A DNA stretch of 64,000 bases. Source: Atopobium sp. oral taxon 416 (GTDB lineage: Bacteria; Actinomycetota; Coriobacteriia; Coriobacteriales; Atopobiaceae). The stretch lies in contig NZ_CP072380.1 in NCBI RefSeq assembly GCF_018128285.1, forward strand, positions 2,418,001 through 2,482,000, written 5' to 3'. Numbering within the stretch: the stretch's first letter is position 1; every line of letters begins with the position of its first letter. The notes under the pieces are model-generated. The model made no database searches. It saw only the letters and a list, made by a program, of their open reading frames with translations, and was not told the origin of the DNA. Shown here piece by piece: positions 52,230 to 62,772 of this stretch. Position numbers and translations under genes: made by a program.

Positions 52230-52896
52230 CCCTTCTAATTGTCAAGTCGTTTTGAGCATGCGACTCTGGGCAATGATGTCGTAGTACAGCTCGCGCGCTA
52301 TGTATCGCTTAACGCATCGTATCGCCTCGAGCTTGGAGTGCCCCTTAGACATCTTGCGGGCCACCTAAGCGCAAGTCCTGTCGTCCGTCCGCAGCCTTCC
52401 TACAGCGACGATGTGTATTGACACAGGTCAATAGACGTAGGGGTACCGGCCCGTGAGGGGCCAACGTCGCCACTCGTCGACGGCACCGAAGGTCTCACAG
52501 TTCAGCTTGGAGACGGTGGCGGGCGAGACGCTTAAGCCCCAAAGAATCTCTGAGACCTCCTGGATCCTCCTCACAGCGACGCCCGCCAGCTACATCTCCA
52601 TCATCGCCTCCTCGAGGAAGCTCTCCTGCCTGCGGTAGCGCTCGATCACCTTCGACGCGAAGGTCGCACCCCTAAAGCTTTGGGATGCTAAGCGTCACGT
52701 CCCCTAAGGTCGTGGTGAGGTTTTGTCTGTAGTGGCCAAAGCAGCAAGCCTGCCGCTCGTAGCGGCCTGCGTTGGTAATCTGGTTTGCCTGCGCATCCAA
52801 CAGGGCGTTCAGTGAGTCTTGTACGGTCTTTCTGACGAGCTCCCCGAGGTAGTCCTGAAGCTTCGGCTCGTCGAATGATACTATCTCGTGTGGCAT
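52230..52896 (-). mobile_element. IS256-family remnant with internal deletion
   Basis: The N-terminal frame MPHEIVSFDEPKLQDYLGELV ... NAGRYERQACCFGHYRQNLTTTLGDVTLSIPKL is typical IS256. Beyond 52680 other frames give FASKVIERYRRQESFLEEAMMEMYLAGV and EVSEILWGLSVSPATVSKLNC, then DEWRRWPLTGRYPYVY, after which the DDE core is absent and the C-terminal/terminal-repeat region follows. The element is decayed and internally deleted. Confidence 0.7.
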
Positions 52897-53491: not shown

Positions 53492-53558
53492 CGGAATATT
53501 CCTCGAGACAGTACAGCCTCAGAACTGTTTGGTCCTCATCAACAGTCATCGTTTTTAT

Positions 53559-53603
53559 AGAAGATATAGAAATTTTAGAAAATATAGGAAACGTAGAAAC
53601 TAT
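53559..53603. repeat. Array of five 9-bp repeats, downstream side of ATPase module
   Basis: On the plus strand, consecutive units AGAAGATAT, AGAAATTTT, AGAAAATAT, AGGAAACGT, AGAAACTAT, exactly nine bases apart. The minus strand reads NNTTTCTAN. A hairpin (ATCAGCC / GGCTGAT) sits right beside it at 53601-53619. The same array type occurs at 54970-55023. Confidence 0.75.
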
Positions 53604-53630
53604 CAGCCCAGCAGGCTGATGTGGAGATGA

Positions 53631-53663
53631 CAAAAATCCCTACGGACAGAGTATCCGGAGGGA
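53631..53663 (-). terminator. Terminator after the ATPase/small-ORF unit
   Basis: TCCCTACGGA pairs with TCCGGAGGGA (one mismatch), followed on the minus strand by TTTTTG. It overlaps the last codons of the small reading frame. Confidence 0.65.
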
Positions 53664-53810
53664 CTTTCCGTGCTTGTATAGAAAGACTTGTGGGAGTTGG
53701 TCGAGGAAGCTCTCGTTCGGTGTTACACCGAAGCCATGGGTGATGGTACGTAGATCGCCGGCGAATACAGCACAAACAGCCAGCCGCAAAGCAAACGCCT
53801 CAAGCTCCAC
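53640..53810 (-). CDS. Small protein downstream of the AAA+ ATPase
   Basis: A GTG at 53810 lies nine bases after GGAGGG that overlaps the ATPase stop, so translation would be coupled. The product (56 residues) contains AFALRLAVCAVFAGDLRTITHGFGVTPNESFLDQLPQ. The segment DLxxIxHxxGVTPNExFLxQ recurs in the frame at 55013-55208 on the other side of the ATPase. No known family. The pairing with the ATPase suggests a partner. Confidence 0.45.
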   Translation of the reverse strand: MELEAFALRLAVCAVFAGDLRTITHGFGVTPNESFLDQLPQVFLYKHGKSLRILCP

Positions 53811-53816
53811 CAGCAC

Positions 53817-54947
53817 CTACCCTCCATAGCGGGAAAGGATCTCATCCTTGTTCTCTATAAGATAGTCGCGCATGAAAGGAATAGAGAAGGCCACGTATCC
53901 AGGAGCTGTACGTTCAATTATCTGGCGATCGATCAGCATTCTGCGATAGGTATTCGCGTTCTGCGGTGGTATGCCCATCCTTTCCGCCACGGTCGAGGTT
54001 GCAGACGCTGCACTATCTTTCGTCATCGCAAACAGATACTCCATTGCTGGACGTGTCAGCCCCGCCAACGCAGTCCCCAGAACCGAAGACCCAAATTCAC
54101 GGAGTGCCTCTGCACAGCCGCGCTTCGCGTCATCCAGCATGATCAGATTTGAAGAGGAAACATGCCTTCGTCCAGCACGCCAGACATAATAGCCGACCAT
54201 CTGAATCAGATATGCATACCCGTGTGTCGTCTCCGCCGCATAGGACAGGGCATCATCGGCAATTCTCAGGCCCGATGCTTCAATGGTCTCCTTCATAGCG
54301 GCAGCAACCTCATCGACCGGAATGCTGCCGAGCTCCTCTGCTCTTGCACGGCGCAGAAATGTTATCCCCTCCCCGTTCAGCAGATTGAGAACACCAGTCG
54401 TAATGCCAGCAAAAAGCAGGGCAATGTTCTGCTGCTCCCTGATCATGTATTGAACATTCGTTGCCAGCACTGCCATGTCATCTGGAGATGCGTCCTGCAC
54501 TTCATCGATCGCAATGAGCAGGCCGGAACCCTTCTTTGTCAGGGCCCGTACCACGCTGGAAAAAGACTCCCGAAATCCAATTTCCGTCTGAGCATTCCCC
54601 AAGTGGGCTTCTGCAGAGATGAAGGGTACCGAAATCTTGATATCCAAAGACTTCAATCTTGCATTGGCTGCAAGCTGCTCTTGAATTGATTGGCAGAGAG
54701 CCTCTTTCCCGGAGACGTTAATGACGGTCCAGCCCCTATCGCTGGCAATGCCTCCGAGCTCCGTCAGAAGTACAGTCTTTCCGGAGCCGCGAGGTCCCGT
54801 AATGCGCAGCAGCCTGCCAGGTGCGCCAGGCCCTTCATCCATTCCATCAATGAAGTCATCGATGACCGAATCACGACCAATCAGCACAGGCGGCGTCATA
54901 CCCGCGGTTGGTTTGAATGGATTGACATAACGTGACTTGCCTGTCAT
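53817..54947 (-). CDS. AAA+ ATPase with C-terminal winged helix (Orc/Cdc6-like or MkeORC-type)
   Basis: Start at 54947 (MTGKSRYVNPFKPTAG) with AAGGAGG upstream. Walker A RITGPRGSGKTVLL (residues 47-60), Walker B GLLIAIDEVQDAS (about 145), sensor-like ALLFAGIT, then a lid helix and a winged helix (GLTRPAMEYLFAM ... STVAERMGIPPQNANTYRRMLIDRQIIERTAPGYVAFSIPFMRDYL). 376 residues. This architecture fits the archaeal-type AAA ATPases/MkeORC group, found on mobile and defence loci. It is bracketed by two arrays of 9-bp repeats, by hairpin terminators and by related small frames. DNA binding at the repeats is inference. Confidence 0.8.
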   Translation of the reverse strand: MTGKSRYVNPFKPTAGMTPPVLIGRDSVIDDFIDGMDEGPGAPGRLLRITGPRGSGKTVLLTELGGIASDRGWTVINVSGKEALCQSIQEQLAANARLKSLDIKISVPFISAEAHLGNAQTEIGFRESFSSVVRALTKKGSGLLIAIDEVQDASPDDMAVLATNVQYMIREQQNIALLFAGITTGVLNLLNGEGITFLRRARAEELGSIPVDEVAAAMKETIEASGLRIADDALSYAAETTHGYAYLIQMVGYYVWRAGRRHVSSSNLIMLDDAKRGCAEALREFGSSVLGTALAGLTRPAMEYLFAMTKDSAASATSTVAERMGIPPQNANTYRRMLIDRQIIERTAPGYVAFSIPFMRDYLIENKDEILSRYGG

Positions 54948-54969
54948 GAGGACCTCCTTCGTCATCTTT

Positions 54970-55023
54970 AGAAATTATAGTATCTATAGAAATTTCAGAA
55001 GATATAGAAAGCTTAGAAAGCAT
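54970..55023. repeat. Array of six 9-bp repeats upstream of the ATPase gene
   Basis: Plus-strand units AGAAATTAT, AGTATCTAT, AGAAATTTC, AGAAGATAT, AGAAAGCTT, AGAAAGCAT, exactly nine bases apart and ending about 20 bases from the ATPase start codon. On the minus strand this is a NNTTTCTAN series between the upstream terminator and the ribosome site, so it overlaps the promoter region. Same family as the array at 53559. Confidence 0.8.
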
Positions 55024-55208
55024 CGGGCCGGCCAGCTGCTGCAGCCATAACGAAAATCCCCTCAGGCAGTAAGCCCAGGGGAATTGTCTGTGCTTGTATG
55101 GGGAAGCCTTGGAAAGTCTGACTGAGAAAATCTTCGTTCGGCGTCACACCGAGGTCATGGGCAATGGCACACAGATCGTCGTCCGTGATCGTCTGGCGGA
55201 TATGGCCC
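55013..55208 (-). pseudogene. 3' fragment related to the small ATPase-linked protein
   Basis: The frame gives HIRQTITDDDLCAIAHDLGVTPNEDFLSQTFQGFPIQAQ, aligning with DLRTITHGFGVTPNESFLDQLPQVFLYK on the other side of the ATPase. No start or upstream part is recognisable; sequence before 55208 is unrelated. A minus-strand hairpin with a T run (55053-55083) overlaps its end. Probably the remains of a preceding copy of the same two-gene unit. Confidence 0.45.
55053..55083 (-). terminator. Terminator upstream of the ATPase repeat array
   Basis: TCCCCT and AGGGGA flank a 14-base loop, followed by TTTTC on the minus strand. It isolates the ATPase transcription unit from whatever lay upstream. Confidence 0.6.
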
Positions 55209-55635: not shown

Positions 55636-56850
55636 GGTTCAATCCTAATTCCTGTGGGCAGATGATCGTGGCTTGATGCTCAAAGAGACAGAAAAGCGAC
55701 CATCCTCTAGAATCTTGCATCGCAACATGTAGACTCCGAAGAAGGATGGAGCGCGATGACAAGTGTAGCGTCCACGGCAGCCCAGCTGTCCGCCATTTCC
55801 CATACCGGAGAAGACTCTGTCTTCTTCTGGATCCCCTCCCATCTCGAGGGCTTCGTGCAGACGGGAGAGCCTAAGGAGAGCGTGCGCACCGAGGAGTTCG
55901 GCACGTCGACCAAAAGATGCGGCAGGCCGGCGCAGATCCTCACGGTTTCGGGCAGGCCGGCAGTGTCGGATGCACCTTCATGCCCCTGCTGCGGAAGGGC
56001 AATGGAGAAAAACGGGAAGGCCCCCATTGCGCTTCGGCACCTCCCCTGGGGATAGAGAGGGCGAGGATAGAGGTCTTGCGGCCAAGATGGGCATGCAGGC
56101 AATGCGGGAGCACCCTCACGGAAGAGGTGCCCTTCAGGGCTTCAGGCCAGCGCATCACGCTGTTGCTGCTCGCATTCGTGTGTGACCTGCTTGCCCTGGG
56201 TTAGACCCTTAAGGCAGTGTCCCTCATGACGGGTCTCCACAGGAATGTCGTGAAGGAGATCAACAGGGCGAGGCTCTCTGCGCTCTATACGGAGAAGGGC
56301 GAGGACGGCGAGACCAGACTCCGGAAGCCCAAGCGGCAGGCCCGCTATCTGGACGCAGATACGTTCAAGCTTTACGGCGGGCACAGATATGCCACCGTGA
56401 TCATCGACCTTAAGGACAGGGCATGCCCTGTGGCTTGTCCATTCCAAGAGGAGGCAGATCGTGCTTGATTTCTGCGACTTTGTGCTCGCTGAGTGGATGT
56501 CCCATGTGGAGGCCATAGCCTGCGACATGAACGCAGACTTCGAGTGCGCCTTTCTTAAGAGGTTTTCGCACCTGGACATCGTCTATGATCGCTTCCATAT
56601 CGTGAAGAACTTCAACGAGAAGGTCATCTGTAAGGTCAGGAAGGACGAGCAGGCAAGGCTTAAGGAGGAGGGCGACGCCGAGGCCACAAGGTCCCTCAAG
56701 CACTCCACATACATCCTTATGTCTTGTGCGAACACCAGGAAGAGGAAGGAGCGAGACGCACGCGCCGGCAAGGTGGTCTCCAGGGGCAGCGCCCTCCTCG
56801 GCAAGAAGGAGGTTGCGCAGAAGGGAGGGAACAGGAAGGTCAAGTCCGAA
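55636..56850 (+). mobile_element. ISL3-family element, copy B, truncated
   Basis: Begins GGTTCAATCCTAATTCCTGT, matching the copy A end at 24092. Sequence then parallels copy A up to about 56840, where it is cut inside the transposase and joined to an IS256 fragment. The right end is missing. Confidence 0.75.
55756..56850 (+). pseudogene. ISL3 transposase, copy B, decayed
   Basis: Pieces in several frames: MTSVASTAAQLSAISHTGEDS at the start; VSLMTGLHRNVVKEINRARLSALYTEKGEDGE and YLDADTFKLYGGHRYATVIIDL in the middle; LAEWMSHVEAIACDMNADFECAFLKRFSHLDIVYDRFHIVKNFNEKVICKV after 56461. A TAG at about 56203 (LLALG-stop-TLKAV) replaces the Gln of copy A. The C-terminus is lost at the junction near 56850. 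Confidence 0.7.
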
Positions 56851-57010
56851 TTCGTGTGTAAAATCGCTGCCGCGTTCCCTGCCTACGCCTTCGCCATGTG
56901 CGCGAGAAGTGAGCCTGGCAGCGCTGCCAGGCGGCGCTGGGGAGCACCTCCCTTACGGCCGCCACGAGCCCCTCGTTGGCGTCGGAGGTGACCATCCGTG
57001 AGCCCGAGAG
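56851..57010 (-). pseudogene. IS256-family transposase core fragment
   Basis: Minus-strand frame LSGSRMVTSDANEGLVAAVREVLPSAAWQRCQAHFSRNMAKA is the IS256 DDE-domain block (SDxxxGL ... WQRCxxHF). It is only about 50 residues long, joined to ISL3 on one side and an IS110 fragment on the other. This is the part missing from the IS256 remnant at 52230-52896. Confidence 0.65.
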
Positions 57011-61683: not shown

Positions 61684-62772
61684 TTGTCAAGCTAAGTGCA
61701 ACATCTCCCTAAAGACCTCGTTGGCTGTCCTGTATTTCAGGACCTTCCTTGGCCTGTCACAGATCAGCTCCACCGCATGCTGCACCTCCTCGTCTGTGAC
61801 CTTTCCGAAGTCTGTGCCCTTAGGGGAAGAACTTTCGCAGGAGCCCGTTGGTGTTCTTAACTGTTAGCTTCTGCCAGGGATGGTGAGGGTCGCAGAAGTA
61901 GAACTGCACGCCTCCCAAGGCCTTTGTGAGCCCTGTATGTCCTGCGAACTGCTTGCCCCTATCCGGAAGTGAGCGTCTTAAGGGGACGTTCCTGCAAAAG
62001 CCCGAAGGCGGCCTTAGAGACGCTTCCGCTGTCGTGCTGGCTCTTTCCGCGGCAAGCAGCCTCACTGCCCTGTCGGCAAGCACGAGCAGACACACGGGTC
62101 CTGCTGCCACGAGCGTGTCGTCTACCCACTCTCCGAGGCAAGACCTCGCATCGGCCTCTTGGGCCTCTCCTTTACGCTGTGTAAGATCTCAATCTTGCCC
62201 CTGATCTTAGGCCTCTTGCTGCGGATTCTCTTCCCCTTCCTGCGCAGGTGGTGCCGCATCTTGCCTTGCGGGCCGGCTTCCGGCAGGTCGAGGGCGGCGG
62301 CTACGGACCTGCCGGTAAGAATAGTCGGCAGGCTCAACGGTGCACCTGCCGCCACCCTCGAGCCTGAGATATAGTCTATCTCCTCCAGGGACCAGTGTCT
62401 GTCCATGATGAGTAAGCGCACCTTCTGCGTAAGCGCAGGGTCTGAAAGCCGCCTTTTCGCCCTGCATCTCCTGTGGCGCTCATCCGCCCTCCTTTTGGGC
62501 AGCACATGCCCTAAAGCGCCCGTGCCGGCCGTTCCTCTTGAGCTTGTGGCAGACGCTGGAGCTGTCCCTGCCGATCTCTGCCGCGATATAGCCGATGGAG
62601 CTTCCCTTGTGCCATGCAGCTTGGCTATGCAGTCCCTCTCCTGAGGGCTTACGATGCTTGTAGTGGCACATTCCTTCCAGCTTTCGACGTTGACTTGGAT
62701 AACCAACATCGTAGCCTTCCGGAGTGTGCCACGCCTGCATGCAGCAGGTCATCCTGTTGCACTCAGAATGCT
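61684..62772 (-). mobile_element. IS30-family remnant
   Basis: Ends AAGCTAAGTGCAACAT (near 61689) and, inverted, CATTCTGAGTGCAACA (near 62770). On the minus strand are IS30 pieces: SIGYIAAEIGRDSSSVCHKLKRNG (helix-turn-helix), LSDPALTQKVRLLIMDRHWSLEEI, TPDRGKQFAGHTGLTKALGGVQFYFCDPHHPWQ and NTNGLLRKFFP (catalytic end). Frames change several times, so it is inactive. Confidence 0.7.

Follow-up and report, generated by a model that had tools for sequence, protein, structure and literature searches.

What purpose is served by the short direct repeats on both sides of an AAA ATPase gene in Atopobium sp. oral taxon 416? The gene lies within the window, that is, the whole stretch of 64,000 nucleotides that was analysed (contig NZ_CP072380.1, positions 2,418,001 to 2,482,000), and all coordinates below are positions in this window. 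The initial annotation of the sequence had noticed the repeats and suggested, among other possibilities, an autoregulatory operator, a suggestion that comparison of arrays and proteins, including their covariation, now supports as a trait of a protein family. We consider it likely that the array in front of the gene is the operator of the adjacent ATPase, which would bind the repeat units head-to-tail and control its own promoter.

Repeat arrays at the Atopobium locus

The argument starts from four elements:

53817-54947, minus strand: AAA ATPase gene, 376 amino acids, probable start ATG at 54947 (the open reading frame finder starts at 54965, giving 382 amino acids)
54966-55019, minus strand: upstream array of six contiguous 9-bp direct repeats (TTTCTANNN), the proposed operator of the ATPase
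54953-54960, minus strand: Shine-Dalgarno-like GAAGGAGG, directly after the upstream array
53555-53599, minus strand: downstream array, five 9-bp repeats of the upstream-array unit, within a duplicated segment

The five and six units of 9-bp period that had been described beside the ATPase are real, with an exact period and imperfect units in both arrays. On the coding (minus) strand the upstream units read, in order, TTTCTAAGC TTTCTATAT CTTCTGAAA TTTCTATAG ATACTATAA TTTCTAAAG, and the downstream units TTTCTACGT TTCCTATAT TTTCTAAAA TTTCTATAT CTTCTATAA. Tandem Repeats Finder reported the downstream array alone (53556-53603, score 47). The upstream stretch reached z 6.8 at period 18 (best of 20 periods, against 60 dinucleotide shuffles), and the exact unit pair TTTCTANNNTTTCTA occurs twice in the 3.0-Mb genome, once per array, so that both exact copies lie at the locus; because of this z value and this confinement, the upstream array is beyond chance. 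When up to one mismatch was allowed, the genome held 12 matches, five of them at the locus, and the reversed control gave 23. A TATAAT hexamer lies inside the upstream array, within 54974-54982 on the minus strand. A role of the array as leader RNA structure was rejected, as its folding does not exceed that of shuffles (z 0.17).

Arrays across the ATPase family

Homologues of the ATPase occur in 26 of 60 relatives and in 87 of 140 genomes of the taxonomic family, with up to ten matches per genome, fragments included. A class-level profile search matched 252 of 396 genomes at E<=0.001, weak tails included, and in a phylum sample 29 of 396 genomes matched at E<=1e-15, 18 of the 29 belonging to the order of the Atopobium locus.

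We measured the self-similarity of 240 nt at periods 6-25 against 60 dinucleotide shuffles in 113 distinct upstream stretches from 118 tblastn-matched loci (L014 had no upstream; identical stretches were merged and near-identical ones kept). An upstream array was found at z>=5 in 82 of the 113 loci, 80 of these 82 with a period of 9, 10, 18, 19 or 20, compared with 5/111 control stretches just downstream, 2/109 further downstream, 1/113 further upstream and 0/114 inside the gene. At z>=3.5 the upstream count was 99/113 (97/113 in a first run of the test), against 16, 16, 16 and 6 in the controls. The proposed co-occurrence of arrays with ATPase homologues was thus borne out, and on these comparisons the upstream array is a hallmark of the ATPase family.

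A separate array finder, which allowed spacings of 8 to 11 only, was run on 204 stop-free proteins reduced to 149 at 90% identity, and 124 of these nonredundant members exceeded the 95% point of 80 shuffles. Unit spacings were mostly 10 (309) or 9 (227), rarely 8 (14) or 11 (2), the Atopobium clade being strict at 9 and others strict at 10 or alternating between 9 and 10, and the imperfect units keep fixed core positions. Of 30 class loci, counted apart from the earlier set with which they overlap, 26 reached z>=5. A fresh held-out set, in which all 20 loci were kept and whose threshold about 1 in 20 shuffles passes, had arrays in 13/20 loci: 10/11 in the order of the Atopobium locus and 3/9 elsewhere in the phylum.

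The units themselves are diverse, for example TTTCTA in the Atopobium clade and CTTATG, TTGCAAA, AGGCGAA, AGGAAA, GGTATAA, TGAAT or ACTTAGA in other members, and they face one way relative to the gene: among locus pairs with similar units, 71 have them on the same strand and one has them flipped. This sole flipped pair, L019 and L217, has similar helices. Within the orthologues L140-L150, which carry 19-bp double units, L142 has exactly one extra unit, a sign that arrays may grow and shrink by whole double units.

The ATPase protein

The protein matches AAA_16 (PF13191) above the gathering cut-off (47.6 bits against 32.6, E 3.3e-12) and the archaeal ATPase_2 (PF01637) below it (25.5 bits against 33.2). 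It had been called Orc/Cdc6-like, of which a loose resemblance remains, while the scores for the specific models fall far short of their cut-offs (TIGR02928, 11 bits against 181.3; ORC-CDC6-like, 12.7 against 27). General domain-model scans gave no plasmid Rep family model among the matches of the ATPase, and a Pfam search gave no effector domain other than AAA and winged helix. The listed matches to solved structures are mostly P-loop ATPases over short stretches, and in PHROGs the match is phrog_6841, of unknown function (E 1.5e-13). In residue numbers of P0001, the main elements of the protein are:

54774-54797, minus strand: Walker A, GPRGSGKT, residues 57-64; G57, R59, G60, G62, K63 and T64 invariant in 67 sequences
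54501-54521, minus strand: Walker B, LLIAIDE, residues 149-155; D154 invariant and E155 at least 90% in the same 67 sequences
53820-54056, minus strand: probable C-terminal winged-helix domain, residues about 304-382, Pfam matches all under cut-off
53931-53975, minus strand: predicted recognition helix, residues 331-345, of which residues 335-336 (53958-53963) track the array sequence

Conservation of the catalytic motifs was scored on the 67 aligned sequences of 81 listed; L017 (internal stop) and L061 (short) had been dropped. The C-terminus is a probable winged helix: in a relative (L034) it matches MarR_2 at E 0.001 and HTH_24 at E 0.003, and the Atopobium segment matches RuvB_C at E 0.085 and HTH_24 at E 0.09.

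Covariation of array units with the predicted recognition helix

We compared units and proteins over 124 members (7626 pairs) with overall similarity removed, the 25 members without an array above the null being excluded. Over all pairs, the nine best of 374 windows of 9 residues begin at 328-336, which is the predicted turn plus recognition helix, and among single columns residue 336 ranks first of 369 (r 0.26; standard deviation over columns 0.05). In pairs of 45-92% identity, columns 336 and 335, in this order, take the two top places among 354 (0.39 and 0.29; standard deviation 0.08). Identity-matched pairs (40-70%) with equal residues 335-336 gain a score of +2.59, which 0/356 other adjacent pairs reach (maximum 1.56), and a permutation test on 62 disjoint pairs gives p 0.0036, with 1/342 control windows as high; in both tests control windows with too few pairs were left out.

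Grouped by residues 335-336, the correspondence resembles a code. DY at 335-336 goes with AGGAAA in 10/10 members, RY with AGGCGAA or AGGCAAA in 6/7 and TN with TGAAT in 4/4, while SW goes mostly with GTATAA or GTGTAA and NY often with TTGCAAA. On these comparisons the recognition helix probably reads the unit, and other parts of the protein either matter too or are co-inherited.

The gene's own promoter as the likely target

In a second genome, G077, all 3 exact unit pairs precede the ATPase, as do 4/5 when a single mismatch is tolerated, and in a third, G080, 3/5 exact unit pairs are at the ATPase locus. In two of four orthologue groups (g29 and g4) the array, on visual inspection, has persisted where most of the intergenic sequence has diverged, g4 also conserving the leader to the start codon; in a third group similarity extends over the entire region, and one 19-bp unit has been gained or lost. 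No conserved neighbour gene was found across 118 loci (mostly 1 kb or more of flank, crude open reading frames, matches of >=90% identity set aside), and on this ground the array as regulator of a neighbouring gene was rejected; the largest neighbour cluster, of 14 loci and mixed sides, is presumably transporter-like. Because unit pairs are near-confined, neighbours are unconserved and the array outlasts the intergenic stretch, what the ATPase targets is likely the promoter of its own gene. TATAAT-type hexamers are some tenfold more frequent per position in arrays than far upstream (45/4523 positions against 8/8197), a contrast that A/T content confounds.

Arrays of paralogues within one genome differ, with 0/35 within-genome pairs similar, against 0.1% of 2009 between-genome pairs of like identity. 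Since between-genome pairs are equally dissimilar, these figures show no avoidance among paralogues.

Proposed mechanism and precedents

We propose that the ATPase combines an AAA_16 P-loop domain with a C-terminal winged helix whose recognition helix would bind one 9- or 10-bp unit per protomer, so that protomers would align head-to-tail on the array, about one helical turn apart. The promoter would lie in or beside the array, and the line of protomers would control, and most likely repress, its own gene, with nucleotide binding in the AAA domain probably gating assembly. Different members would read different units, and because the units differ, members sharing one cell need not cross-regulate. 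The arrays, their period and polarity, their presence across the family, the near-confinement of unit pairs and the covariation come from comparison, while binding, head-to-tail assembly and repression are inferred.

In Streptomyces, one protomer of BldC binds each 9-bp direct repeat, head-to-tail (PMC5859096), and the ATPase family resembles the winged-helix filaments of BldC, RdfS and Xis in its polar direct repeats, its variable unit number and, as proposed, a protomer per about one DNA turn (PMC5859096, PMC11963761). Polar direct repeats of about 9 bp are thus shared with BldC, but a stand-alone MerR-like winged helix is not (the best match, MarR_2, is the one in the relative named above). 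BldC is a 68-residue MerR-like protein with multiple targets, whereas here we have a 376-residue AAA ATPase with a MarR-like winged helix, and, unlike in BldC, the array stands at the protein's own gene and its unit varies from member to member.

The plasmid proteins of the AAA_16 type annotated as 'ATP-binding protein', many of them actinobacterial, belong to the same family (23-42% identity to P0001 among the near-full-length matches listed); their records name no function, and the gene tables of 13 regions list protein genes only, so that arrays would not appear in them. Haloarchaeal Orc1/Cdc6 proteins also join an AAA domain to a winged helix, and their origin recognition boxes are longer than the units of the ATPase family. 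As in the ATPase family, their repeats lie beside the gene, and each origin depends on the co-located gene (PMC3936714); for an AAA protein accompanied by repeats of its own beside the gene, haloarchaeal Cdc6 is the best precedent. Their boxes are inverted, however (PMC3936714), whereas the repeats here are direct and the Orc1/Cdc6 models score below cut-off. Archaeal Orc1-2, a non-initiator, is a further case of an AAA+ protein with a winged helix that acts as a transcription regulator (PMC9738581), but it is described as a global DNA-damage regulator, whereas the unit pairs here are confined, or mostly so, to their own locus in three genomes. In the open-access literature (subscription papers and preprints excluded), no description of the arrays or of the family was among the matches listed.

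If autoregulation through the array holds, most members state their likely target site beside their gene, which would provide a rare, large natural data set on the old question of how a winged helix, through its recognition helix, comes to prefer one DNA sequence over another; the 124 arrays would amount to many candidate orthogonal regulator-operator pairs. They would also offer a way into a family that is often present in several copies and whose members on plasmids mostly carry the annotation 'ATP-binding protein'. A bolder extension, which we regard as possible but doubtful, is that these form a large bacterial family of orthogonal, self-labelled DNA-binding ATPases in which residues of the recognition helix determine the unit and the filament on the gene's own polar array, going beyond autoregulation, is itself the working device, an identity tag in incompatibility, immunity or segregation. 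If this were true, hundreds of natural protein-DNA recognition pairs could be read straight from genomes.

Evidence against autoregulation and alternative readings

Several results weigh against autoregulation by a helix that reads the array. The winged-helix assignment itself depends on Pfam matches under cut-off. Residues 335-336 vary within the Atopobium clade (QN, PN, AS, SS), yet all 5/5 members there have TTTCTA, and these residues are therefore not the sole determinants. Once identity drops under 36% the covariation is gone (rank 13, Mann-Whitney p 0.28), a different window ranks first in pairs below 38%, column 336 alone falls outside the best 12 of 337 in disjoint pairs, and A-rich units are common, which inflates similarity. 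For the held-out set, a rule fixed in advance expected the helix to predict units at least as well as the rest of the protein, and this expectation failed, the mean percentile being 0.72 for the helix and 0.81 for the rest (a percentile of 0.9 or more in 6/13 and 8/13, respectively; the helix is gapped in L262). In leave-one-out prediction, helix and rest scored 3.15 and 2.96 at an identity limit of 0.9, -1.58 and -1.38 at 0.5, -2.23 and -2.64 at 0.4, and -2.14 and -3.32 at 0.36, and 1 to 3 of 62 windows matched or exceeded the helix; under the loosest setting this was the window of the helix itself. When pairs are divergent, the windows that rival the helix lie around residues 103-121. This stretch of P0001 (54603-54659) is a variable part of the AAA domain whose similarity tracks the arrays among divergent pairs, and it could be an oligomer contact.

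Further points concern distribution and promoter. Arrays are often absent outside Coriobacteriia, as the 3/9 held-out loci elsewhere in the phylum illustrate, and among plasmid and phage loci, counting one Collinsella plasmid, 1/14 has an array at z>=5; with the array finder, 5/15 plasmid, phage or viral-contig loci (again including one Collinsella plasmid) have one at p<0.05, the starts of L175, L177, L178 and L249 in this test being estimates. In G080, 2/5 exact unit pairs lie elsewhere in the genome. Promoter matches are weak (37/124 with z>1.5) and do not favour repression over activation.

Among the alternatives, the one that survives best takes the array as an iteron-, origin- or centromere-like site of ATPase assembly in replication or segregation, with chromosomal copies as integrated replicons or incompatibility determinants. 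A protein with AAA domain and winged helix whose own array adjoins its gene would suit this role, as would the profile matches to the P-loops of DnaA and DnaX, and the Haloarcula origins each depend on a co-located cdc6 gene (PMC3936714). Homologues are also present in 96 of 72,556 plasmid records, including Rhodococcus, Arthrobacter, Clavibacter and Sphingobium, and ParA or ParB genes occur in 2/13 sampled plasmid regions. Genomes nevertheless hold several matches without conserved replication or partition neighbours, 9/13 sampled plasmid homologues have no array at p<0.05, and the array is placed where an operator is expected, immediately ahead of the start codon; we consider an origin or centromere unlikely.

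The ATPase could instead be a toxic or immune-active effector of abortive infection or defence, kept low by the array and released upon infection, with array diversity separating paralogues. The genes are indeed patchy and often multi-copy, plasmid copies adjoin annotated HipA, RES and AbiEii genes in 3/13 regions, and the Atopobium gene sits amid what we take to be transposase remnants. However, the PADLOC matches are weak (mad8, confined to the P-loop at residues 49-109, E 6.5e-5; Cas3b, E 0.071), the Pfam search named no effector domain, and the neighbours are anecdotal, which leaves a defence effector quite improbable in our judgement. That the arrays arose by slippage, or are A/T-rich microstructure of the promoter that no protein recognises, with shared ancestry behind the helix covariation, is very improbable. 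In favour of this reading, a whole 19-bp unit was gained or lost (L142 against its orthologues), A-rich units are common and covariation fades at low identity. Against it, the array has outlived the remaining intergenic sequence in 2/4 groups (by eye), periods are mostly 9-10 and multiples, imperfect units keep fixed core positions, and control windows share the same ancestry, yet 0/356 reach the helix.

The clearest plasmid array, before the homologue of a Citricoccus plasmid (L170), is a GTWCAC array that reads GTTCACC GTACACT GTTCACA GTACACA GTACACC at spacings of 9, 10, 9 and 10; a RES-family gene adjoins it and a ParA gene follows about 2.7 kb on. Phage records held a homologue in 1 of 50,697, with one viral contig in addition (one pattern scan).

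Duplicated flanks and the small frame

On the minus strand the locus runs, in order, through a small-frame fragment, a hairpin, six repeats, the Shine-Dalgarno sequence, the ATPase, the small frame, a hairpin and five repeats. The features involved are:

53640-53816, minus strand: small frame, 58 amino acids, open, after the ATPase, unconserved
54975-55181, minus strand: duplicated segment, copy upstream of the ATPase, with small-frame fragment, hairpin and array; partner of 53555-53760
55051-55086, minus strand: terminator-like hairpin with T run, preceding the upstream array (fold of 55050-55100, z -3.00)
53630-53667, minus strand: hairpin with T run, terminator-like, beside the downstream array (fold of 53625-53670, z -3.96)

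The flanks of the ATPase are duplicates of about 206 bp (53555-53760 and 54975-55181) with 70% DNA identity, and upstream the small frame survives as a fragment (55103-55183; 27 residues at 56% identity, E 0.005). The duplication is old, and because of it the Atopobium locus has both the small frame and the bracketing; the downstream array is most plausibly explained by it. Bracketing by repeats, as the initial annotation had described it, does not extend to the family: an array of the locus's own unit beyond the gene was seen in 1/124 array-bearing loci, Atopobium itself (0.4-1.5 kb or more scanned per locus). Some periodic stretch occurs downstream in four other loci, L017, L091, L108 and L125; in the last three it is not of the locus's own unit, and L017 lies outside the own-unit scan set.

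The expected co-occurrence of the small frame with the ATPase likewise failed, the small protein having a match at E<=0.01 in 0/139 other genomes of the taxonomic family. A pattern search for its motif over 118 loci found none outside the Atopobium locus, and a role of the small protein as partner of the ATPase was rejected. The small frame is probably not part of the ATPase-array system. The two copies differ at 6, 4 and 9 sites by codon position, which is only mildly coding-like.

The locus had also been read as what remains of a tandem two-gene unit after the loss of one ATPase. This fits the 206-bp duplication, and as its explanation it is a fair reading, but no ATPase remnant was seen with the protein, a search of the genome giving 1 match at E<=0.001; the family profile gave a second match in the Atopobium genome, its position not listed. 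As for the hairpin terminator described beside each array, the hairpins stand, with the folds given above, while a consensus terminator scan reported neither of them.

Genomic neighbourhood

On both sides the ATPase is flanked by what we take to be broken transposase-like frames of several insertion sequence kinds (55756-56991, plus strand; 52672-52896, minus strand; 61820-62709, minus strand), and the locus seems to sit in a transposon graveyard. Two close relatives, L034 and L035 (72% identity), are without a small frame of the Atopobium kind; their neighbours are presumably a Sir2-like gene on one side and a LysR-type gene on the other, and in L034 the presumed LysR-type gene is convergent and ends one base past the ATPase stop.

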